A DNA stretch of 64,000 bases, taken from assembly GCA_025786725.1 (NCBI GenBank), contig JAHLTZ010000015.1, positions 1 to 64,000 on the forward strand, given 5' to 3'. Position numbers and translations under genes: made by a program. The notes beneath the pieces were generated by a model that was not told the origin of the DNA, searched no databases, and saw nothing but the letters and a program-made list of their open reading frames with translations. This document shows, piece by piece, positions 1-45,900 of this stretch; position 1 is the stretch's first letter; each line of letters starts with the position of its first letter. This DNA is from Syncephalis fuscata. Lineage: Eukaryota > Zoopagomycota > Zoopagomycetes > Zoopagales > Piptocephalidaceae.

Positions 1-613
1 CTAGACTTGCCGGTTCCCTTTGATAGGAAGGCTTCCATCCCAATAATAATATACTTTTAAATAGTTAAAACCAAATTTGAATCAAGAGATAAGCATATAT
101 GTCTAGTAGAAAAATAAAATGGGTATTTTTACAGATGCGCAATCTAGAATGCTAATCTGTCAACATAGGCCTGAGACTTGAAATGAAGAGAGAAGAAGAA
201 ATAAAATAAAACGCAAAAGTAACTTGGATTAAGAGATCGAGGGCTAAGATCTATTAGACCGAGGAACAAAAATAGAAGCAGTATTAGGCCTATGCCTTTC
301 ACTACACTATAATAGATGCGGTTGGTACAGCAAAGGGCTTATAAAGTCATTGGATATGAAAAGTAAACTTGTGCATGCAATAGGTGAATCTCGCCTTTTG
401 CATAGAACATGAGTTATGTCTAGACCATAGCAGACATGTTACAATATTGGTATCTCAGTATAACCATAGATTTAAATAGCCCACGCAGCACACACAACTA
501 ACTAGTATTATCATCATTACACTCTACTTTCTTCCAATACCCACTACTACTTACTTTATACTAAACAAGCTCTATTGGTGCTTCCACTTAGTTTTCTTAA
601 AATCAATACCAAC
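1..613. other. Upstream flank of the microexon gene
   Basis: No gene is recognised here. The last ~130 bases before the ATG at 614 are a pyrimidine/adenine-rich leader (ACTAACTAG, TTCCAATACC, AACAAGC) of the kind seen in front of other genes in the window, so the promoter and 5' UTR of the microexon gene probably lie here. No clear TATA box could be assigned. Confidence 0.4.
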
Positions 614-2423
614 ATGAAGCTTTCTATTGCCGTCGTCTGCACCATTGTCATGGCTTTTGTGGCCGCCACATCCATGGTGGATGCCAGTCCAGCCCTAGCT
701 CGTCGTGGTACGTTGTAACTACAATAACTAGTTATACATTTAATTAAATATTATTTTAATAACAAATTAATGCTAATAGATCGTAAGTTGGATTGTATAC
801 CAGCCATCTATGTACTAATTGTATGCTATTTACTGTGTGTGTTTAACAACTTGTGTTAATAGCTTGTAAGTAATATTGTATATTTACTAAACATGTACTA
901 AATATATATTATTTACTGTGTGTATTCGATAACTTACATCGATAGATCGTAAGTGACATTGCACATTAATTAGCTATTAATTAAGCATATATTATTCTCT
1001 GTGTGCATAATAAATTGTATTAATAGTTCGTAAGTGCCATTGTATACTCATCAACTACGTACTAATTACATTTTATAAATTGATCATGTTTAATAACTTG
1101 TTTTAATAGAATGTAAGTGGAATTTTATACTAAGTAAATATACTCTAAACATATGTTATATATTGTGTGCGTAATAACCTGTATTAATAGTTAGTAAGTG
1201 GCACTTTATATTTATCAACTATGCACTAAACATATTTCATGCATTTTGTGCAATTAATAATTTGTATTGATAGCTCGTAAGCGTTATTGTATATTATTTA
1301 TTTATACACTAAGCATTTTTCATGCATTGTATTTATTTAATAATTTAACACTAATAGCTGGTAAGCGTTATTTTATATTTAACAACTACGTACTAAACAT
1401 GTATTACGCACTGTATGTGTTTAATAATTTATATTAATAGCTTGTAAGTGCCATTGTATATTTAACAATTACGTACTAAACATGTATTGCACTCTGTATG
1501 TGTAATGACTTGTATTAATAGCTCGTAAGTGTCATTGTATATTTACCAATTATACACTAAACATACGCCGTGCACTGTGTATATTTAATGACTTGTATTG
1601 ATAGCGCGTAAGTGATATTGCATATTTATCAATCAAGCACTAAACGTATGTCATACATCATGTATATCTAATGGCCTATGTTAATAGGTCGTAAGTAATA
1701 TTATATATTTACCAACTATGCTTTAAATATGTCTTATACGTTGTATATTTCTAATAACTTATATTAACAGGTCGTAAGTGTTATTTTATACCCATAAGCT
1801 ATGCACTAAATATATGTCATATATTGTGTGTTTAATAACTTATGATAATAGATAGTAAGTGACATTGTATATTCATTAACTATACACTAAACGCATGCAA
1901 TATACCGTATATTTTTAATAACTTGTATTGATAGCTCGTAAGTGGCAGCCCGTATTCATAAGATATATGCTAAACATATACTATACATTTTATATGCATG
2001 CTTAATAATTTGCATTAATAGGTAGTAAGTAGTATTTTATATTAGTTAAATATGCACTAAACGTATATCATACATTTTATATGTTTAATAATTTATATTG
2101 ATAGACGGTAAGTGATATTGTATACGCATCAACTATGTCTAAACATACATCATGCACTGCTTTTGTTTGATAACTTGTATTAATAGCTGGTAAGTAACAA
2201 TTTATATTTATTAGTTATGCGCTAAACATATGGTATGCACTGTTTATATCTAATGATTTGTATTATTAGTCAGTAAGTAGCATTGCGTATTAATCAATCA
2301 TGCACTAAAAGATGTTTACACTGCGTGTTTAATAATTTACACTGATAGTTTGTAAGTATGATTGTCTAGTGTTGTTTTATACACTAATTATATGATATGT
2401 CGCATTCATTTATAAACATAGAA
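614..2423 (+). CDS. Secreted peptide precursor assembled from 20 three-base microexons
   Basis: Exon 1 (614-707, 94 nt) encodes a classic signal peptide (MKLSIAVVCTIVMAFVAA...) with a likely cleavage after VDA, then SPALARR, ending one base into a codon at donor GTACGT. Then follow 20 exons of exactly 3 nt, each preceded by TAG (once CAG) and followed by GTAAGT or GTAAGC: 780 ATC, 863 CTT, 946 ATC, 1027 TTC, 1110 AAT, 1191 TTA, 1274 CTC, 1358 CTG, 1441 CTT, 1522 CTC, 1605 CGC, 1688 GTC, 1771 GTC, 1852 ATA, 1935 CTC, 2022 GTA, 2105 ACG, 2187 CTG, 2270 TCA, 2349 TTT. The last exon starts at 2422 with AA. Spliced in phase 1 they read DPYLQFTPASPRRHTRNAVI and then TAA across the last junction: 51 residues in all, and 16 of the 20 array codons end in T. 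The array-encoded part begins directly after Arg-Arg, so a Kex2-processed secreted peptide is inferred. I recognise no family. Splicing of every unit is inferred, not shown. Confidence 0.72.
708..2421 (+). repeat. Tandem intron/microexon array, ~83-bp period, 20 units
   Basis: Twenty-one consecutive introns of 70-84 nt (most 78-80) are recognisably homologous to one another. Each begins GTAAGTG(A/C)ATTGTATATT-like, has CACTAAACATAT near the middle and ends in AATAACTTGTATTAATAG-like sequence. Distances between successive three-base segments are 79-87 bp and mostly 83 or 81. Unit lengths are not multiples of three and the units contain many stops, so the array cannot be an open frame unless spliced. 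The three-base segments show 14 different triplets among 20, while the flanking AG and GTAAG bases are invariant. Confidence 0.9.
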
Positions 2424-3495
2424 TAACCGATGCTCTCAAGACAGCAACATTGGCATATAATTACGCTTTTAGCTTAATATTCTTTAGATATATCCTTGGC
2501 AAGAAACAAGATCATTTGATGAATGCCGTCTAGTCTACCTCCATATCAAGTTCTAACCAATGTTCCAGTTTATGCATCTTTAATCAATGATATCATTGTA
2601 TTATTAACAAGTCTGCAGTCAGTTGTGTCTACTCGATATGCAAACTTGTTATAATAAACATATATTTTATTTAATTATATTAATCAAGTGTTTATATGTA
2701 TTCTATGTTTAGCTTGTATCAAAGTGCTAGCAGACATTAGTCAATTAAAGATACCAATACCCTATTTGTACTGTTATGCTATAGTGATTATAAACGTAGA
2801 TTGACTTAATTGTAGTGGTATTCGTATTAATATAATAGCAATACCTTATTTTCAGCAATTTAATAGCACTATTTACTATTTGTAACGCTGTCGAGTGAAT
2901 TAAATATTAAATATTATAAAATTGATATATTTATGCTATTGAACATGCTAACATTTAATTTAAATAACTAATAGACTGTTTATAAAATAGACTGTGTGTG
3001 TATACTAACCAATAATGGCGATTAAAAACAAACAAAAGACATTATGATACAGTGAAGAACAGTAGAAAATAAAGCAATATAGGTAATAATAAGCAGCGGA
3101 TGCTACTGAAATGAATGAATGGTGTAAAAATGGTTAATGCTTATCAATAGCTAATAAATAATATCTATTTTCTCATTAATCGACAGAAAATACAGTTATT
3201 TGCGATGTGAAAGCAAAAGGTAGATTGTAATTGGGACTCAATTTAATTGTGATTTAATTGAACTCAATAAGCAAAGTTGATTCGAGTTCAATTCACCAAT
3301 AAACCCAATACATATAGTAAATAGTATTTTCCTTCGCACAGTTCGCGCTTCCATCGTCTCCTTTATCGATTTATCGTAGTATATGTTCATCCGGAGATTA
3401 TCTCTGCCAACTGAACGACTTCAACTGTTGTGATCAAATAGCGGCCATTGTCAATTAAAAGGCTGTTTATTCTTTCATAAATCTAACAATTGATC
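2424..3495. other. AT-rich intergenic region with poly(A) signals
   Basis: No open frame or RNA gene is recognised. AATAAA occurs at about 2653 and could end the microexon transcript. The last ~150 bases, which include short pyrimidine runs, are the likely promoter of the SWI3-like gene. Confidence 0.4.
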
Positions 3496-24861: not shown

Positions 24862-27800
24862 CTAGTAAATGAGACCATGAATTTGCCATGACGATGATAG
24901 TGTCGATAAAGATGTAGACTCTAAAGAAGATAGATCAAATAGAGAGGATGTCGGTTCAGATGTTTTCGACATTAGCATGGCTTCACTTGTAGCAGCTGTC
25001 ATTGACGATGGCGTAGATGGACTTTGCGGTGATTTATAGACTAGCTTCTGACCATCCATTGATGTCATACCAGAAGTGGTATGGCAGCCATTGTTGTGGT
25101 TATTATCATGTCTTAAAAGTGTACCCAATGTAGAGGCCAATGTTCGTGGATCGGCATCTAACGAAAAGAGCGATTGACCAGCTAAAAGAGTAAAATCAGT
25201 CATTGGATCGGCATCTGTGCTTAATGTTTTTAGTTGTTTATCTTTGCACGTCGTATTTGTATTTGTATTATAAGCGTGCTTTTTTGCATCAGATAAATTA
25301 GATGCAATGTTGTAAATGGGTGCCGAGACCATATTTGGCATAAAAACTGTCGAAGAAGGCTGCTGCTGTTGTTGTTGTGTGATTGGCTGCCAATTAGACA
25401 ATGATAATAAAGCAGCTTCTTCGTTGGATAATAAAGATTTTGACAAGAGTGCTGTCGTTGATCCGTCAATAGCAGATGATTGCAACAAAGAAGGAACGTG
25501 TTGTTGAGCAGCAATAGGGCGAGTGGTCAATGTATTGTAGTACGAAAGATTAAATGAATCTACGGTAGATAATTCTGTTGCAGTTGCTGCGGGCTGTTTT
25601 ATTGGCTGGAAAGTAGAGGTAGAAATAGGCATCAATGCTGCCAAAGTAGTAGAAGTATTAGCAGCCGTCGATATTGCTGCTGTTGTTTTTGTTGTTTTTG
25701 TTGTTGTTGCTGCAGTAGAAATAAAATTGCAATATGATTTTACTGGTAAACAGCCATAATCATAATTTAATTTCATCGATTTGTTATTGCCATTATTAAT
25801 CTTTTTATTAGACTGAGTAAATGGATCGAGCATTAACTTGAGTAGCTGTTCCAAGTAGTTGGCATGTTCCCAAACGACACCTAATTGATTTAACAATGTA
25901 CAAATGGAGTGTAGCTGATTTAATGCTTCCCAGGCTGTCGATGAAGATGGCGATGTGTATTTATCGTGAATCCATAACATAGATGCCGTCCATAGACTAT
26001 AGGCCATAATAGGGTGCTGGTAGAGGAGTGCATCGCCAGTCAACCGATTAGTGAGTCCAGTTAGTAAAATGGCCGATTGTCGATAAGCGTCAAGCGATCG
26101 TCGATCCAATTCCGTTTCAACTCGGTAACGGTAGTTGTGCTGCGGATGTGGTACAAGTATAGATCGGCTAAGTAGCATAAGTGCAGTGTAATATAAACAT
26201 AACAGTGTAATATGTGTAGAAACAGTGGCCAGTTGATGGTCACGCTCAGTAGGATCAACAGCAAGTGGGATATCTGGACAGCCCTGTAGCGATGCCGGCA
26301 ATTGGTGTGAATACCAATAGGCAAGTTCCTGTTCAAGTTGCTGAGCAGTTTCCTGTTCACGTTTAGTGATAAGGGAAGATGAACCAGAAGTGGAGATGGG
26401 CCGAGGCCGATTAACAAATCGTATAACACGTCCAAGAATAACTAGTAATCGAGGAATATAGATTTGACCAGGTAGTCCATCTGATAGTGACAATGACGGA
26501 TTATTCTCCCCATGACTTGTCGCGCCATCTTTCTTCTCCAAGAATGAATAGGCCACTTGAAAGGTGAATTCATCAATACTAACCGGTTTACCGCTGGACA
26601 TGGCTGATAGCTGATTAAGCATGAAACAACACCACCATGCTCGTCGTTTCTCTTCAAGTACGGCCGCTGAATCTGTTTGGATTTCATTGCCAGGCAATGG
26701 TTGTTCATCAAGTAGATGTAGATTTAACCGAATAGCCATACTAGAATGGCACTAATTAGATTACAGTGCATATTAATACAAATAAATTGACTTACCGAGT
26801 ACATTCTGTGTGTAATAGCAATGCATGTGCCTTGGCTGTATGGTTTAAATAATCCATACCGCCACCTGAAGCATGAATACATAGATTGATCAATGCTTGT
26901 AGTGTTGTTAGGTTCAATGGAGACTGGCGCTGTGACACCGATGGCTGGCATGCCTTTAAAGCAAAAATGGATCGATTGGCATAAGCTTGGCCGGCCATGT
27001 GTCGTTCTTTGGTCGACACATTAGGCAGTTGGGCAAATCGAGCCGCTACAGCCAATACACTATATAATAGAGCAGTAGTTGAATGTTCATTGTGTGAAAT
27101 AGTAGTATTATCACCATTTTCAATGCTAGTAGTGGTGCTAGATGATAATGACGCTATCCGCTGCATAAATGTCTTACGATCGAGTAAATAAAAATGCGGT
27201 GCCATAAATCGAAAATATAATTGAATTAAATGGTCACGTAGTGCAGGTGGTGCTTCAACATTCTGACTTTGGTCATCGACTTCTGGTAGTTGTAATCGAT
27301 AATCACCATTCTGTTGCTGGTAGCTTGATGGTTTGAATACTGATGATAGTTCCGGTGATATCGGTTCAGTAGATGATGGAAATGTTTGTGCATAGCCTGG
27401 TGCTGATGGATGTGTTTGTAATAATTGTTCCATCCATTGTAATCGCTTCTCTAATTGAGCTACATAGTTGGCTCGACTACCACGCTTGCGTATTTCCGTT
27501 TGATAATGGCAGGTGAGATTGTAGCGTTGGCAACAGGAGCAGGTTGGTTTAACACTGTCACACTTCACCTTACGACGACGACAAGCATCACAGGCCAGAT
27601 GGCGTGTTGTTCCAGTGGCCATTTGATGATCGTCATTCAAAGCAGCAGTAGCGGTAGGTGTAGTTGGTGTAGTGGCTGATGTAGGAGATGAAAAGGCATA
27701 TTGACCAGGTGAGTTGGTTGATGATGTAAATACAGTAGATGTTACTCCTTTGGTTGTTGTTATAGGCTTTATGGTTTGTTTAGGAGAAGCTATTGAAGGT

Positions 27801-27985
27801 GTAGGAGCAATAGGGCTTAATAAACTTGTGGATATGGTAAGTCCATTAGAATAGCGTTGCTTCTTTGATGGTTGAGTAGCCGGCGCTACTGCAGTTTTTG
27901 TTGGTTGATTAAATGAGGTATCGACGTTATATGTATTCGAGTTGGATGAATGCTGCACGGTAGAGGCCACACGTTTCCGTGCCAT
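24862..27985 (-). CDS. Zn2Cys6 fungal transcription factor, cluster member 1
   Basis: A nuclear DNA-binding regulator. Exons 27985-26796 and 26740-24862 give 1022 residues. Zinc cluster: CDACRRRKVKC-x6-CSCC-x6-C (CX2CX6CX6CX2CX6C), then a short linker and coiled-coil dimerisation segment (VAQLEKRLQWMEQLLQ). A fungal-specific transcription factor domain follows, with HFYLLDRKTFMQR, RMAIRLNLHLLDE and the KRRAWWCCFMLNQLSAMSSG motif. The C-terminal 300 residues are Thr/Ser/Gln-rich, as in activation domains. The only intron (26741-26795) splits an Arg codon just before MAIRL, a position shared with other cluster members. The upstream ATG-like TTG at 28060 is not used; MARKR is the first ATG. Confidence 0.9.
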
Positions 27986-31935: not shown

Positions 31936-34900
31936 CTAGGACGTGGCAATGGTAGGTGTCGTTGCTGCGGTCGTCGTCGTTTGCAGTGTGGCCGGCAAGA
32001 TGAGCTTTGTTGCTAAACTAGTTAAAATTGCCAAGTATGTCTCGGATAATCGCCAGTAAGGTCGACATTCTCGTAAAGCGTTTAGTAAAACGATAAAGCC
32101 GTCCTGTGCAGCTGCACGCATTGGATTATTGACTTCTACTGGACTTTCAAGACAGCGAATGAGAATGATGGCGCAGGTAAGGTAGCAGAAAGGCTGTAGC
32201 ACGTGGCATCGTATTGCTACTCGGCCAAGACCTTGTTGAGCAATCTGTGCCACACTAAGTGCCGATTGTACACATCGCAGCAATGACAAATCAGCAGGAT
32301 TCTGACCAGGCATCTTCTCTATTGATTCAAGCATTTCTGGCGTACTACCACTAACATCAGCAGCAACAATCGCACCTGAACCAAGCGGTGCTGTTGCATT
32401 GACCGTCATAGTCGTAAATGCATCGGGTTGCTTGCCTGTAAGCGATCTATAACGTGCACGATGCAATAGCGCTACTGTTACATTATGGAACGTGTGTAGA
32501 CACATAGCATGTGTAGTATAGCGATTTTCCCCAATAGACCGTTGTAAAATATCATTTGGTGAAAAGCTTAACGATGATGGTAGTGTCTTGGACCAGGCAG
32601 CTAGCAATGCATCAAGATGTTCAAATTCTGCATTCTCTTCTGGAGTAATATAACCAAGTCGTGGTCGAATAACAAATTGGTTAACACGGCCCATAATTGT
32701 GCACAGTTGCAACATATATGCATAGCGACTAAATCTTGTATCTTCCGTCAGGCCAAACTGTGCACCAGGCTCCATTTCAAGAAAGGCTCTCGTATCACTT
32801 GGACCCATCATTACACCAGGATGTTCAGTTGGATTTGCGCCTACTTCCCAGTCGGGATCTGGACTCGGTAATGAAACAGCCATATCGCGCGAATCAATGG
32901 CCGATGGAACACCAGCAGCCATAGCACCAGTGCGATCTATAAGGTAGCACACCCACCAAGTACGTCGTTTTGTCTCTTGAGTAACCCAGTCTTCTGGCTG
33001 TCCTTGTCGACGCGCTACAAGTACTGGATCGTCCAATCGGTGCAGCTTTAAAGACTGTGCCATTCGGGTCGCCATACCTAATTGATAGATAATTAGCTAT
33101 CTTTGGCTGATAAGATAATTCGGTAATTTAAATGCCGAGGTATTAAAATAATTATAGGAAATATAATTGGTCGGTTTAAAAACAACCGACCAACAACTGT
33201 ATTATAATCTGTTTCGTTGTTCTTTTCGTTCAGTTATTATTACTATTAACAACTTAAATAATAGCAATACTAGTAATACTAGTAATACCAGCTCTTTCTC
33301 AAACACACACATATATATGTATATGTTTTTATCCGTCTATTATTTGTTATTCATTATTTACTCACCCATATATACCCAGGCGGTAGAGGCACGACCTTGA
33401 GCGTACTCAAAAATGCCAAGAAATAGTACACCTTGAATACCATGGACCTTAGGCGAACTTTGTGAAATGACCAGGTGTTCTTTTGCTCGTTGTGCAAAAA
33501 ATTCACCTGATGCAAGTAGATGATTTGCCTGCAGTGTTGGATGGTCAGAATAACGCGCTGCATTAGCGCACATAGTCCACAGCAGTAGCGGTGAGACCCG
33601 ACGAGCTGCAAGTTGTTTATAAAATGTCGGTGGATGGATCATGGGTCCTAAAGGATAACAGAAGGTAAAGAAAAGAGAAAGTAGATGTTTTAATAAATCA
33701 TCTGGGACTGGTGGCAGTAAGTAGCATTGCCTATGGGTTCATTGGCAGGCGGCATAGTTGCGTGGACACCAATTGGTATAGATGCTGCACTAGCAGTCAT
33801 TGAAGGTATATGTGACATGGATGGTGGTGGTGGTGGTGTTTTAGGTGACATATTGTTGTTTAAAAATGCACTTCCAGCTGAATTCGATAGTCTGGTTTGA
33901 GATGGTGGTGATGGAGAGACTGACGCTTTAGGTGACATCGATGGTGATGGTGAATGGCTTAGTAAATTTGCCGGATTGAGTGGATCTACACCAGTTGATC
34001 GTGGATTCAATAATAGTAGATCAGCTGATGCTGCGGCTGCTTGAGATGAAGCATTAAGTAGTGAAAGTGTACCGGGATCAACAGTTAAATTGTTACTAAC
34101 TGCCTGTGGTACTTCAGTCATCCAAGCTGCTAATAGAGGATTTAGATCGCCAGGTAGACCTGCTGCAGTTACTGCCGCTAAATGGCCATTGCTATTATTA
34201 CCATGGCTGTTGTGTGAGGCAGTAAGATTGTTTCCGCCTAGCATTGCTGATGGATATTTAACATCTGGTTGCATAACTTGTCCTGATGGCGAAATGGTAA
34301 TATTGGCTAGATCTGGTAGACTAGATGATAGTCGTCGAACAAGACGAGCAGTAGAGTTGATATCATTGCCACCGACATTGTTAGCGCTAAGTAGGCCTGG
34401 AATCGAAGCAAGTCGCAAGTCAAGATCGGGTGGCGGTGCATTGTAGTCTTGCATAATACCAAACATTGCTTGTTGTAAGATTGCCGCCTCTGATACACCG
34501 GCTAAGCCGCCAGCACCTGACATTTGGGCAAATTGAGTCGCCATATTTGGATCGGTGGCAGCAGCGGCAACAGCAGCAGCAGCATTGGCTGCCTCAGTCT
34601 GTGTGCGCAATAGTCGTTCCATTTCCAATAGTCGATTCTCTAGCTTTTCAATATATCCTTGGCGTTGTTTGCGTTTTTGATTACGCGGCTGGTAAGCACA
34701 CTGTATACGCAACTGAATGCATTTGTTGCACGATGGGCGTACGCCATCACATTTAACCTTGCGTCGACGGCAATTATCACATGCTTGTGCTAAACGCTTC
34801 TTTTTGGCAGGTGCTGCCTGATCTGATGCTGTCGATGCTTGCGTCGATGATTTGGACGATGAGTCTTTTGCGCCGCTTTCGCCGGATAGTAGCTGCTGAC

Positions 34901-35093
34901 CATGCAACGATGGCGAGCTTCTTTTACTTGGCACTTCGTCGTCGTCGTCTTCGTCATAATCGTCTTCGTCGTCGTAGTCGTAATCGTCATGGTCTAGATG
35001 ATTGTCATCATTAGGCGATTGAGCTATGTGCTGTTGGCCAGAGAACTGGCTAGCGTCCTTCATATCAGTATCCATTAGGTCGGAGCCGTCCAT
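31936..35093 (-). CDS. Zn2Cys6 fungal transcription factor, cluster member 2
   Basis: A nuclear regulator. The N-terminal segment is acidic (Asp/Tyr/Glu run), followed by a zinc cluster (CDNCRRRKVKC-x6-CNKC-x6-C) and a coiled coil (GYIEKLENRLLEMERLLR). A long Ala/Ser/Pro-rich linker leads to the fungal TF domain (DDLLKHLLSLFF, MIHPPTFYKQL, MAQSLKLHRLDD, KRRTWWVCYLIDRTGAMAAG). The clear intron is 33078-33365 (phase 1), much longer than usual, and contains a CGG-N11-CCG palindrome. The frame changes once, within about 33690-33738, by the equivalent of one missing base between NEPIG and VPDDLLKH; no intron explains it. A decayed gene is possible, but both sides are otherwise fully open. The start is ATG 35093, not the in-frame TTG upstream. 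Confidence 0.86.
33167..33193. promoter_or_regulatory. Gal4-type CGG-N11-CCG inverted repeat in the TF2 intron
   Basis: TTGGTCGGTT and its exact reverse complement AACCGACCAA are separated by seven bases, placing CGG and CCG triplets 11 bases apart. That is the spacing recognised by Gal4-like Zn2Cys6 dimers. It sits inside the 288-nt intron of TF2. Function is inferred; it could equally be a chance hairpin. Confidence 0.4.
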
Positions 35094-37472: not shown

Positions 37473-40400
37473 ATGAATCATCCTACATTTGATAATAATA
37501 ATAATAATAATGATAACTTATCAGTTAAAAATATTATTGATTTGGTATTAGATCCATCAGCGGAGACTGTACCGCTAGCTCGGACAATTACGAGCGAACA
37601 ATCCGAGATATTTCCCTTAAAACGGAAAAATACTCGTACACAGCATCAGTTATTACCGCCAAAGACTGAAGATTCTGACATTGCAATGCTGTCACATTCG
37701 GACACGGTCACAGCGATCGACGGAGCGACGGTAGAACAGTCCGATGGCCCGGTCGCAATGCCATTGAGTTCAACTGCCGATCTCTCTGATGCAATGATCA
37801 TATCCAAAACAGCTAATCCAGCAAAATCATTGGTAAAAAGGACTGATGATTCATCTGTAGATACGTCAAGTGATTTGAGTAAAAAAAAAGCATTATTGCC
37901 ACTTTCAGCAAAAAACTCGGAAGTCGGCCGTGGTAAGCAATTACGAAATCGACGGGCATTTTCGTGTGATACATGTCGACGACGTAAAGTAAAATGCGAT
38001 CAGCGTCGTCCACAATGTGGTAGTTGTATACACCGTAATAGTACGTGTGTGTACGGGGCTGCCGAAGTAGGCGCATTTGTAGCTGTACTTCGAACATTTA
38101 CTAAGAAAATTCAAAGACGAAAGAAGACGCAATTGCTTTTATTAGCTGATAAGAAAACTGCTTCATTAACTACTAAATCAAATGAATTGAATACAAGTGA
38201 TTTATCGTCAACTGATCAAAGTATACTAAATAATGCTTTTGGTAAAAAGACATTGCCATTACCATCACCTACAGCTGGACAGTATGCAATGTATAGCGAT
38301 AGCCAGCTCGCAACATCAACAACAAATCCGCAAATACAAAAATGTGTTGATTTGCCAAACTCTCCCCCGGAATCGCCGACAGTGCATCCAGTAGCTGATG
38401 AATGGAATAAGAAACATTCATATATAGCATTGACGTCAATGTTATCTTTAACTACCGATAAGCAACTTCCCTCGCCGATGCTATCCGCAACAACACCCGA
38501 GTACGAAGCTGAAAATCCAACGGAATATGAATTGAATTTAACTGCAGTGACCAAACGACGTGAACAAACAAATACATGGATATTTGTACTTGAAAATGCA
38601 ATCTTAAATCCTTCGCTATCAATGCTGCCAGTTGGCAGTCCAGATCCTATAATAGTGCAACATTTAGTAACGCTTTACGTGCAACGAATTCATCCGCAAC
38701 ATCCTATGTTTAGTCTGCAATGGCTAAGCGGAATTATTCGCTCAAAAAGTATTCCATTAGGACTACTTACCGCTATGATGGCCTTGGGCGCGCGATTTTC
38801 AAATAAGCTTGCTCGGTCGACTGAAATATCCAAGCTATTACATAATCAAGCACGATTATTTCTACAGCAAAATATTGATAACTTTGATTTAACAACGGCT
38901 CAAACAGCCATACTAATCAGTATTTATTTATTTATTGAAGGCAATGGACCAATGTCGTTTGCTTGCCAATCACTTGCTTATCGGTAAGTATACGGCTTTG
39001 TTACGCTGCAGTATTAGTACGATAGCAATAGTTTGTAATTGTAAATTTTTGGTAAAAACAATAGCAACTAATAATAGTTTATTTTAGACTTGTAGAAGCA
39101 ATGCATACCAGTATACGAACGCCGTCAAAAAATCATGCCGATAAAATGTTTACAGCGCTAGGCATGAGTCGGTCGAGATATGAAGAACTTCATCATGAGA
39201 CATGGAGGCGCACTTGGTGGTATCTTTATATATTAAATCGCATTTCAGGCTCAAGAACGGGGCAGGCATTTGGTAAACGAATTACTGGTGTACCTATGCC
39301 TACCCAAGAAATTGACGACATGGTGGGTAGAGTTGCTGAACCTAATATCGAAGAACAACATGTTAACAGCTAATCCAAGCAAAACTATCCGGAATTCAAT
39401 GGTCCAGTCCAAGAATCAGTTTCGATGGATAGTAAATTACAGATAGAAAATAGCATTTTAAAACGATTTCGCTACGATAGTTCTTTTAAGCTTGCCATAC
39501 TATTGGAACGCGTTGTACTATTTGTGCGACAAAGTGCCAGCTGGTCAAGCAATACTTCTCAGCAGAACGAAAATCTCATTAGACAGCAACGAATACTTCA
39601 ATATGAATGGTGTCTTGAAGCTAAATCACTCGCAACGTTTAGGGAAATTTACAATCAGCTTACTGCACTAAAAACTGATCGACTAAGTAAACGGTCGATT
39701 GACAAAATAGGTACTCCAAAAGTCGTTACACAACCGTTGCCCACCTTAGCTGCACCGGCCTTACCGACAATGACAGTACAAGATGAGACACAAACAGTGT
39801 CGGCAAAGCTATCGGCCATTCTATACAGCGTATTTCTTCATGCCTTTCATCGTACGATATTAATCCAATTAATGAGCCCACCAATGCCAACATCAATGCA
39901 ATCACTACAATCCAGCGAGTATGAAAGTATTTATGCTCTATTTGATGAACGATTCATTAAGACTACTAGAATTACAAAACTAGCTGATACGATCAAGGAA
40001 GAGGTTGATAATACGACATGCAATAAAACGAACAAATCTCCAAAATCGCCACCATTAAACTTGGAACAACTATCGACCTGCTTGGGCGCTGCCTTGGAGA
40101 TCAGCCGAATAGCCGAGTGTATACCGCTCGATACCATTGCTATTATGCATGGCTATTACCAACAGTGTATTGGAATAACAGCTGATGTATTTCTTAACAT
40201 TCTTGAAAATGAAACTGCTTGGCAGCTCCTTGATCCTATATCAAGTATTACACGATTTGCCCACTGTGCTGACACACTTGGCCAGTATAGCCGTTATTAT
40301 GCCATGGCCGAGTTAAATCGCGTTAATATGGTGTCACGCTTTTGGGAGAAATGCCAGCCCGCTATCCAGCATGCGTATACTACACCAGGGGGCGCACAGC

Positions 40401-42964: not shown

Positions 42965-45900
42965 ATGAATACATTTCCTGAAAACGCATCGATGTCAAAT
43001 TGGATAAACACCAACGATATGAACAATCGCAACAACGCTGGCACCGCTGCTAATGCAGCCGGCAATACGCAACAGTATGCATTGCCACTCCAACTGTCGC
43101 AATCAGCAGTCGATTTGTTTGACCCAGCAGGTGGTTTATTTGCTGCTGTCAGTAGTCAATCCAATATCTACAATACGCAGCCGGCCAATATTCACATGGC
43201 TAGTAATCATGCAGCATTTACTGCTTCTAATAATACACCTAATGCAAACGCTGGTGCTGCTGCCGCCGCCGCCGCTGCTGCTACTGCTACTACTACTGCT
43301 AGTGCAGCTTCAGCGATTAACAAACCAAAAAAGCGATTCCGTCGTACCCAGGCATGCGATGACTGCCGTCGACGCAAGGTACGCTGTGATGGCAATCGGC
43401 CCAGTTGTACGAGCTGTCTACGACATGGTGTAGCCTGCCATTACCAAGAAACGCTAAAGAAACGTGGTCCAAAGCCAGGCTATATCGAAAAGCTGGAACG
43501 TCGTTTAAATCTGATGGAAAAGATGTTAATGCCACTTTCAGTACCTACAGAGAATGGTTCTGGTCAGACTCAATACTCGCAAAACAAGATGTTTAATTCC
43601 AGTGCAGCAGAAAAGCTAATGCGTGAATTGGCTGAAGATTCGATTGATATGCAAGGACTGTCTAATCAAATGGACTGGTTTTCACAATTAAGCGATACTG
43701 GCAACGCAAATTCACCAACAACGGCCACAACACCGGCACCGGCGTCAACATCAGCATCAGCGTCAACATCAACGCCAGTGATAGCAACAGCAACAACAAC
43801 AGCACCCAGTAGCACCGCTTCGCAGCCTGCCAAAAACGAACTGGCAATTAAGCCAATGAATACATCATCAGTAGCACAATCTATCTGTACGCTAGCATCA
43901 ATCATGAGTGAAGAAAACGATAACAATACTGTTGATTCATTAATGGGTAAACACGGATCACCACCACCGCTACCTAGATTCAACGTAAACGTTGCGGGAG
44001 AGTTAACGAACGTTTTAGTAGATGCGCCAGATATGGCAGATGCCAATAATTCTGTCGTCAACAATCTACCAGTCGACACCAGCAGTATACTCGCCATGAA
44101 TACACCTGATACGACATCACCTCAATTACGCGATCATTTAATCGAAAATGTATTTACGTATGCCTATTACAGCACGCCCTTCCTACATCGTGCTACTTTT
44201 ATACGACAAACGCGCGATAATACTGTTCCTCGGATGTTATTATACGCAGTCATGGCATTAGGCGTGCGATTTTCACCTTTGCCTGAAGTTCGTAACGATC
44301 CATCACTTCGTAATGGTATGGTTTATGTCCATCGGGCGAAGAATTTACTTAAACAAACGGTCGCTATACCTGACGTCACTTCCATTGCCACTCTTTCCAT
44401 CCTTGGTTCGTATATGTATGCTTGTGGCGATATGGCGAAAAGCTGGATTGCTGCAGGTGCATCACTTCGGTAAGTTATAGCATAAATGAGTAATGCGTTA
44501 TTGAATACAAAAACTAACAAAAAATGAATGTTTATTTAGAATGGCACAAGGACTTGGACTTCATGTGTTAGACGATGAAACAGATGATGCTTGCTGTATA
44601 GATAGCGGAATGAAGGACGATTGGATTGGTCGTGAAATGAGACGGCGACTTTGGTGGTCATTAGTGCTTACTGATCGGTTTGCTGGTGTGGCCAGTGGGC
44701 GACCTATGGCTGTTGACGAAGACGACTGTGAGGTGAAGCCAGCATGCGATGACGCTTTATGGCATCAAGATACGCTGGGCGATGGCGTCCCATTGACTGG
44801 CGAGCCAGTTGGTGATATTGGCCATCTTACTGCCTGGACAAGTCGGCCCAGCTACATGGGTATGCAAACGTGGATGCGTCTTGCTTTACTTACTGGTCGA
44901 GTTGCGCGCTATGTTAACCGTCCACGTCAACGAGGCCCCAATGGCATGTATACCGGACCACCGGACGATCGATTTGTCCGGCTTGAAAAGGAACTTATGG
45001 AGTTTGGAAAAGATACGGCGAATATACTTGAAGCGGTTGGACTTACCGATGACCCAACGTGGCCACCCACCAACGTACGTCGTTCGGGTAATATAGAGAA
45101 GTTTGTTGCACGTGATGAAATGGTCCGCTATACAATTCGTATGGTATATCATGTAGCACAACTTTATCTTTATCGATCGATTCTATCAAGCAAATTCAAC
45201 ACCGGCTGTTATGAGGCACACACACCTTACACTATCTCCTATCTAAGACGTGCCCAAACTGCCGCTGATAGTATTTTGGCTATATGTGCTCGTCTACGTC
45301 CTGAGCATTATGCTTACTCTATCCCGCCATTTATCTTTGGTGTGGCGGCTTCATGCCTTATGCAATTGCATACGGCGGTATCGGGCGATTTAGGACCAGC
45401 TGCTGTCACTGCAGCTCAACAGAAATTAGCAACTGCACTTTATGTGCTATCACAAACCGAAAATTACTGGGCCATTGCCGGTCTTCATCGTGGCATGCTT
45501 ACAGAACTATGTCATATGATGGACGAGCGTACTTCATCCCGTCGAGCAGATACACCAATTTCAACCGATAATACTAATAGTAATACTAACAACAGCAATG
45601 ATAGCGATCAAAACAATGTATGGAAAAATGTACGCCTGCCAATAAAAACGTCAATGCGCGAACTTATTCCATTATGGGAACGTGCCGTACAACGTGAACT
45701 TGCCGCGCTATTTGCCGGACAACAACGTTCAAATAATCTTGGTCTATTGCAACCATTTAATGCAGCGATGGAAATGAACGATCTTAGCGGCAGCAGTGCT
45801 AGTAATGGATCAGAATCACCAGAAATTCGCTCACTTACTAACACGCCTACCTTTAAAGATGACGATGATTTAAGTTCATTTACTGATACGCCTTATTCAC

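Follow-up and report, generated by a model that had tools for sequence, protein, structure and literature searches.

One-codon exons in tandem: a predicted family of secreted-peptide genes in the mycoparasitic fungus Syncephalis fuscata

Near the start of contig JAHLTZ010000015.1 of the zoopagomycete fungus Syncephalis fuscata (Zoopagales, Piptocephalidaceae; assembly GCA_025786725.1) lies a predicted peptide gene whose mature part appears to be divided among 20 consecutive exons of three nucleotides (nt) each. The stretch analysed, positions 1 to 64,000 of this contig on the forward strand, is called the window here, and the gene the window gene. Its leader exon (614-707) comprises an ATG start, 31 codons and one further base; the signal peptide was judged by eye, with no predictor, and the exon closes on a dibasic Arg-Arg (RR), which we take to be a Kex2-type site. 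Triplets follow from 780-782 to 2349-2351 at a spacing of 79-87 bases, all 20 units having the form AG-NNN-GTAAG(T/C), and the stop codon is split over the last intron, T2351 and A2422-A2423 giving TAA. The joined frame is open and reads MKLSIAVVCTIVMAFVAATSMVDASPALARR-DPYLQFTPASPRRHTRNAVI-stop, so that the predicted product is a signal peptide, RR and then DPYLQFTPASPRRHTRNAVI. An earlier note, made from the letters of this stretch alone, had claimed the 20 of 20 units, a signal-peptide leader ending one base into a codon, a concatenated frame open to the TAA at the last junction, and 16 of 20 codons ending in T; these claims were borne out, the last by counting from the triplets, and its coordinates were correct to within a base. 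The parts of the gene are listed in Table 1.

Table 1 Parts of the window gene, with positions in the window; comparisons are with the paralogous array locus L009
Feature	Position	Strand	Remarks
Upstream region (promoter/5' untranslated region, 400 bases before ATG)	214..613	+	common to array and intronless genes in the family
Leader exon: signal peptide MKLSIAVVCTIVMAFVAATSMVDASPALARR and first base of next codon	614..707	+	dibasic RR end
Intron 1	708..779	+	donor GTACGT (starts 708), acceptor AATAG
Microexon 1 ATC	780..782	+	triplet identical in L009; flanking introns 97-98% identical
Microexon 2 CTT	863..865	+	triplet differs in L009; flanking introns 95-98% identical
Microexons 3-17 and introns	946..2107	+	variable middle block
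Microexons 3-7	946 ATC, 1027 TTC, 1110 AAT, 1191 TTA, 1274 CTC	+	
Microexons 8-12	1358 CTG, 1441 CTT, 1522 CTC, 1605 CGC, 1688 GTC	+	
Microexons 13-17	1771 GTC, 1852 ATA, 1935 CTC, 2022 GTA, 2105 ACG	+	
Microexon 18 CTG	2187..2189	+	triplet identical in L009; introns 83% and 98% identical
Microexon 19 TCA	2270..2272	+	triplet identical in L009; introns 97-98% identical
Microexon 20 TTT	2349..2351	+	last T opens stop codon; triplet identical in L009; introns 97% identical
Last intron GTAAGT ... ATAG	2352..2421	+	acceptor AG 2420-2421
Terminal exon	2422..2660	+	AA completes TAA, then 3' untranslated region; 3' end approximate

The gene is not a lone case; it belongs to a genome-wide family. In the 28.95 Mb genome the adjacent-pair pattern AGNNNGTAAG-N60-90-AGNNNGTAAG occurs 3,288 times (1,410 forward, 1,878 reverse), compared with 16 times for a reversed-pattern control, and the first 30 bases of the leader exon have 243 matches with at most 3 mismatches (control 0). 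At the protein level, 150 places out of 315 candidates were scored as leader homologues. With 18.9 strict pairs per parsed array, the counts suggest about 174 arrays and about 3,500 one-codon exons, near-duplicates included. Some contigs are near-duplicates, and 22 of the 29 parsed arrays remain once redundancy is removed; there are thus fewer distinct genes than this, and the family probably holds more than 100. Near-identical copies of array genes are frequent (C1:475325-477501 and C1:531727-534399; C2:601079 and C61:6432; C24:477760 and C24:543274); such copies, inverted or on separate contigs, suggest recent segmental duplication or haplotype contigs.

The loci taken for closer analysis were 40 of the 150 listed leaders in list order, 4 from the divergent part and one long array. 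Thirty of them, including the window, could be parsed with 8 or more units. One, L013, is an intronless gene that has unrelated units downstream of it; its removal left 29 arrays. The parser relied on splice-site scores and was blind to codons; exons could be 1-21 nt long, and those that deviated from 3 nt were slightly penalised. A restricted parse admitted exon lengths of 3, 6 or 9 nt only and favours an open frame, unlike the stop and cysteine tests below. Outside the counts stand L033 (leader missed by the pattern, held out as an independent case), L043 (cut by a contig end), a second leader in L031 (too few units) and L013, while L053 and L008 were analysed apart; parsing at variant units is approximate. 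Across the 29 loci, 758 of 808 exons are 3 nt long and a further 29 are 6 nt, in constant phase 1. The inter-exon gaps measure 73-80 bases in 723 of 779 cases, and the array introns have GTAAGT and TAATAG ends (GTAAG being part of the search pattern), with TACTRAY-like branch-point motifs in 261 of 764 introns at no single fixed distance. The frame stays open to the terminal exon in 25 of the 29 loci under the restricted parse; ten of these (L018, L024, L025, L027, L030, L039, L041, L051, L052 and the window) are also gap-free, begin at most 171 bases from the ATG and show a leader donor that could be recognised, the terminal exon of L051 being doubtful. The terminal exon carries a family motif around TCAAGACA..A.CATTGG, present with at most 6 substitutions in 28 of the 30 parsed loci. 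In L048 the first exons are longer, 9 nt in the parse and 33 nt by eye; the family thus also contains exons of more than one codon.

Judged by their order and phase, the triplets are codons, which would be read in sequence across the introns in the phase set by the leader. In a first, smaller parse the predicted phase held no stop among 613 codons, while the other readings held 52/613 and 8/664; shuffling the order of units within arrays gave 27.3 +/- 4.0 stops. All 29 arrays together contain 1 stop in 764 codons (shuffles 38.7 +/- 4.7), and the 22 arrays left after removal of 7 near-duplicates contain 1 in 571 (shuffles 29.3 +/- 4.1, minimum 11), reading runs being broken in these tests wherever an exon length was not divisible by three. 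The sole stop in the 22-array set sits in L040, after a 2-nt unit. Cysteine codons in the same set number 92, compared with 43.3 +/- 4.5 in shuffles, and the amino-acid composition correlates with that of the intronless mature peptides described below at r = 0.80 in the predicted phase, 0.27 and -0.11 in the other two. Across the intron, the last base of one unit is also informative about the first two bases of its successor (z = 19.9). The held-out locus L033, whose 39 units are the same in both parses, has no stop and reads GDESTSAIEYCRQCQWVCFKQANNGDNGDACKRRTCAGPCAGI; 12% of its order shuffles are stop-free. L008 alone is weak, with 18% or 50% of order shuffles also stop-free. The same holds for the window gene: 20 codons would be stop-free with a chance of about 0.4 at the stop rate of the shuffled arrays (29.3/571, by arithmetic), so its open frame alone is weak evidence and draws its force from the family. 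For this single gene, then, the coding case is one of kinship.

These tests bear directly on one rival, a plain minisatellite inside one long intron, in which the triplets are spacer, AG-NNN-GTAAG persists only through unit copying and the leader is spliced to the last exon. The units are indeed tandem repeats that change by whole units. Stop depletion and cysteine enrichment nevertheless depend on unit order and phase, part of the family has peptide homology to intronless genes, the long array L053 shows amphipathic order, and a leader joined to the last exon alone would yield almost no mature peptide; we therefore give this explanation hardly any credence. The earlier note had opposed the gene to a minisatellite with frequent in-phase stops, and such stops are nearly absent between paralogs (1/571). 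The opposition itself does not hold here: the array is both a gene and a tandem repeat that changes copy number and order between paralogs, so that the two terms are no alternatives.

The predicted peptides have a recognisable character. In 15 of the 29 array loci the peptide has exactly six cysteines, as in L024 (GSYEECKACMVVCKDRGELSKEQCQGKCYNQCNNPQP) and L025 (GTVAECKTCLSHCTRGGDTKKFCSIQCSHNYFPAQC), and the held-out L033 likewise encodes a clean six-cysteine peptide. The spacing C-x2-C-x3-C recurs in 11 of the 29 arrays and C-x3-C-x3-C in 6, L024 having both; with such recurring spacing behind a leader, the family ranks among the cysteine-rich secreted peptides. Six of the 29 arrays are cysteine-free. 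One of them, L039, is proline-rich, open and gap-free; another is the window gene, which encodes no cysteine and so falls outside the cysteine-rich group. The longest array read, L053, has 84 three-base exons and, by eye, one 15-nt exon. A stretch of 63 consecutive units in it, QKLQSFATQLQQEIDSFRPSCSEDIQKLYDQADKLHDELLVKLNKFLNEYIKQYGQLHQQDG, has no stop (0.9% of order shuffles are stop-free) and a hydrophobic moment of 0.448, compared with 0.274 +/- 0.047 in shuffles, none of 3,000 being as high; by prediction L053 thus contains an amphipathic-helical stretch.

The family also has intronless members. Short intronless genes stand at 13 of the fetched leader places, some of them duplicates (14 rows, L016 and the second leader of L017 being one place), and L013 is a further one. 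In 8 of the 13 the 3'-end motif of the array genes lies directly behind the coding sequence with at most 5 substitutions; at this mismatch limit it was not found in L023, L028, L029, L046 and L047. L017 ends in TGC GCA TAATCAATGGTTTCAAGACATTAGCATTGG and array genes read ...TACAG/CATAATCGATGGTTTCAAGACATCAGCATTGG, so the joint falls at the splice point of the array genes. For the upstream regions, the best array-gene match has 78-87% identity over 352-405 bases at 7 of the 13 places, 92% over 150 bases at L020, which the contig end truncates, and 74-82% over only 101-156 bases at the other 5. Among 31 array-side upstream sequences, L012, L016, L017, L019, L020, L021 and L022 find 26-30 matches, L028/L029 25, L023 19, L046/L047 2 and L044 one. 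At the peptide level, array L048 and intronless L046 share CKC-x-D-x-DG-x-CTSC with a score of 69, the best of 300 order shuffles reaching 45, and the similarity of 11 of the 29 arrays to intronless peptides was unreached by any shuffle. The intronless paralogs look like natural complementary DNAs (cDNAs) of the joined form. Since the promoter is kept in them, they most likely arose from spliced messenger RNA (mRNA) by cDNA recombination. The reverse history, in which an intron was inserted after every codon and in one phase, would be much harder to picture.

Comparison of paralogs indicates how the arrays change. The units are tandem repeats of intron plus codon, about 63-78% identical. L038 and L039 differ by one 162-base gap of exactly two units (TTC CTG), with mismatches at 20 of 1,534 intron bases and at none of 78 exon bases. 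Between the window gene and L009 there is one 83-base gap; homology covers two units at the start and three at the end, so that DP...VI-stop is kept, whereas the interiors differ. Differences amount to 2/93 in the leader, 2/201 in the 3' flank and 254/1,201 bases in the introns, those flanking the middle block being mostly 57-85% identical, with single units up to 93%; the best matches of 1113-2104 elsewhere in the genome reach 72-73% over more than 900 bases. Aligned unit by unit, L036/L037, like window/L009, are homologous at both ends with the middle block replaced, in L014/L018 and L042/L045 homology covers the 5' part and for the most part ends there, and L025/L030 and L026/L027 are alike nearly throughout. 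The C1 array of L008 is without several units of L030, 57 kb away and inverted, yet is open. In 8 of 10 paralog pairs divergence is higher in the triplets than in the interiors of the introns, the exceptions being L014/L015 and L038/L039. Where flanks are at least 97% identical (6 pairs), triplets change at only 7 of 201 bases, so that replaced units, and not mutation directed at codons, are the main source of the diversity; hypermutation or diversifying selection specific to codons was accordingly dropped as a candidate, the excess of triplet divergence deriving mainly from non-homologous units. L014 and L045 carry insertions of about 416 bases relative to their paralogs inside array introns, with neighbouring units apparently intact. 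These are possibly a dispersed mobile element, and L040 has large stretches between units.

We propose that a conserved leader exon with signal peptide and RR is followed by tandem units, each consisting of an intron, mostly of 73-80 bases, and one codon in constant phase 1, and then by a terminal exon with the stop and 3' untranslated region. Introns this short would suit intron definition. Since a 3-nt exon is presumably too small for two spliceosome assemblies at once, stepwise removal is likely: each splice would add one codon to the upstream exon and leave a fresh GTAAGT donor for the next intron, a sequence of events resembling recursive ('ratchet') splicing. The product would then be secreted and cleaved after the RR of the leader. 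Because the units are nearly all multiples of three and the introns are alike, recombination would rarely break the frame, and unequal recombination or gene conversion inside introns could add, delete or swap whole codons. Such a layout would let the mature peptides that face a fungal host diversify, the leader and both ends remaining constant. In all 20 window units three nucleotides separate the acceptor from the donor, and the two are not directly joined; the strictly joined form TAATAG/GTAAG, a zero-length exon, does not occur in the 29 arrays. On the minus strand of L053 (2345-2366), TTAATAGAG/GTAAGTT (TAATAGAG/GTAAG) could be read as a zero-length exon or ratchet point.

Exon skipping may add variants at the RNA level. 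Taken to its limit, this becomes a combinatorial splicing library, in which transcripts differ in their subsets of microexons and one gene yields many peptides. With 758 of 808 exons of 3 nt and 29 of 6 nt in one phase, almost any skip keeps the frame, and steric limits would make some skipping likely. Such a library would not require that unit order be maintained, however, and the cysteine spacing, the helical periodicity of L053 and the intronless copies favour one main, fully included product, so that we regard the library as improbable. The earlier proposal of a secreted peptide gene made of 3-nt exons, by contrast, gains strong support from the comparison of stops, composition, six-cysteine peptides and 243 leader starts. 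On these sequence data we place the probability at roughly 0.87 that the arrays form a family of secreted, probably proteolytically matured peptides encoded by one-codon exons, with sequential splicing and unit recombination. The broader claim, that they represent a gene class of 'one codon, one exon' with ratchet splicing, frame-proof codon shuffling and intronless fixation by reverse transcription, seems to us somewhat better than an even bet. S. fuscata parasitises other fungi, and the secreted, fast-changing and often cysteine-rich nature of the peptides would plausibly fit a use against or on the fungal host.

Several observations weigh against this picture. The controls of the information test were raised too (within-triplet z = 17.3, larger lags 2.7-5.7, near-duplicates included), so we put the weight on the stop and cysteine tests. 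The L053 stretch was picked after reading; the frame of its restricted parse closes three units before the array end, and the unrestricted whole parse holds odd-length exons and stops. Similarity to intronless peptides is marginal in 7 of the 29 arrays (fewer than one in ten shuffles as high) and not above shuffles in 11, the window included (at least 10% as high). The 7 changes in 201 triplet bases give no sign of strong selection on single codons, be it purifying or diversifying. The unrestricted parse contains 21 exons, out of 808, with lengths other than 3 or 6 nt (2-13 nt, including 2, 4, 7, 8, 10 and 13), some arrays carry large insertions, and L010, L011, L034 and L048 (4 of 29) have no stop at the terminal exon in the restricted parse. 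Owing to such odd-length units, insertions and missed stops, some members of the family may no longer function or may have been parsed wrongly, and several arrays are possibly pseudogenes. None of 13 annotated S. fuscata proteins closely matches any of the 29 parsed array peptides, the best match to an array being that of P0010, an intronless member, to L048 (71% over 14 residues).

Pressed further, these points would make the arrays relics, once coding and now mostly dead, with the intronless copies as the working genes. The lack of any array counterpart among the annotated proteins found would agree with this, as would deviant or missing splice sites, odd-length units and large insertions in some arrays. 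A single stop in 571 codons of the non-redundant set, where shuffling gives 29, speaks against it; young duplicates (L025/L030, L026/L027, L036/L037) keep their cysteine frameworks, with one extra cysteine in L037, and array loci outnumber intronless places about 2:1 among those parsed (29 versus 13, plus L013). We hold general decay to be very improbable. Decay of the window gene alone, within a family as described, is unlikely too. In its favour, this short gene has no cysteine, and order-dependent similarity to the intronless peptides is absent in it, 81% of shuffles scoring as high. On the other side, it keeps its frame and both splice sites in 20 of 20 units, its sibling L009 keeps the ends DP...VI-stop around a different middle, and L039 is likewise cysteine-free, open and gap-free.

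Among known systems, schistosome micro-exon genes (MEGs) combine a signal peptide exon with long runs of very small symmetric exons, which are usually longer and varied. They are alike in encoding secreted variable proteins at the host interface; unlike them, the S. fuscata arrays have nearly all exons of one codon, tandem-copy introns and intronless twins. In aphid bicycle genes the exons are larger than the codon-sized exons of S. fuscata. Bicycle genes are described as encoding putative secreted effectors, with many small exons, on average about 17, of which the internal ones are almost all in phase 2, and with very divergent coding sequence (PMC9168663). The S. fuscata arrays, in contrast, are in phase 1, with one codon per exon, up to 84 exons per gene and tandem-repeat introns. 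Two protein searches, based on 5-residue words, matched S. fuscata only and thus gave no sequence kinship to schistosome MEGs or aphid bicycle proteins. By predicted structure, with a leader exon ahead of many tiny symmetric exons that share one phase, the arrays are nonetheless microexon genes. The microexons of plants, flies and vertebrates are single events or few, in otherwise ordinary genes; several papers mention 3-nt exons, and RPS24 has three consecutive microexons, whereas the S. fuscata genes are built from dozens of consecutive 3-nt exons.

With regard to mechanism, the ratchet points known so far divide long introns into sections and as a rule leave no sequence in the mRNA. In recursive splicing and recursively spliced exons (RS-exons), an acceptor lies near a donor and stepwise removal leaves a new donor at the junction (PMC8605326, PMC6224609). 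The S. fuscata steps would differ in each adding one codon, dozens of times, across introns of about 80 bases. In product and family structure the arrays resemble conotoxin-type precursors, with a leader bearing a dibasic site, divergent cysteine-framework peptides and many paralogs. Those precursors likewise have a conserved leader with a dibasic site, hypervariable cysteine-framework mature peptides and a large paralog family, and their mature region is not divided into single-codon exons. The nearest architecture is thus that of MEGs and bicycle genes, and the nearest mechanism recursive splicing. Among the matches listed from the open-access literature (titles and abstract openings) we found no account of long runs of single-codon exons. 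To our knowledge, no known system combines single-codon exons, introns that are tandem copies of one another and codon shuffling that spares the frame; on a stricter view the genes could count as an extreme form of microexon gene.

If the proposal is right, the arrays mark an extreme limit of exon fragmentation, in which the spliceosome rebuilds a frame codon by codon, dozens of times per transcript, in a fungus, and they would challenge limits of exon length and exon definition. They would offer a natural system for the order and fidelity of sequential (recursive) splicing, and a gene layout with nearly frame-proof recombination at the protein level, in which intronless paralogs record the spliced mRNA. 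Aligners that cannot place 3-nt exons would miss such genes, so similar families may hide in other genomes.

Within S. fuscata itself, annotation seems to have missed most of a family whose leader start occurs 243 times. Protein searches with family members matched S. fuscata only (3 in one search, 13 in a profile search), their sensitivity being limited by shared 5-residue words and protein length. Two gene models, BDF19DRAFT_420694 (P0003; L040, C256:740300-746300) and probably BDF19DRAFT_464749 (P0008; L048), begin at the leader and then, by eye, read intron sequence or diverge from the array; array genes thus appear misannotated. Pfam returned only sub-threshold matches, and no family above cut-off, for two intronless and four predicted array peptides. 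The intronless peptide P0002 had no match at E <= 10 in a PDB sequence search, and its predicted fold (mean predicted local distance difference test, pLDDT, 62.5; predicted template modelling score, pTM, 0.32) was too poor for a fold search. The mature part of L053 gave nothing at E <= 0.1 in the six frames of its own genome, a search that had no positive control and shows little. One leader-bearing annotated protein, P0012 (111 amino acids), has a lysine-rich, helical-looking mature part with internal dibasic sites, unlike the cysteine-rich members.

Elsewhere in the window, several long open reading frames with a Zn2Cys6-like motif, seen by eye, lie clustered at 26792-27985, 33690-35093, 37473-38987 and 42965-44473. 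They form a putative cluster of fungal transcription-factor genes, Pfam confirmation being given only for 42965-44470.

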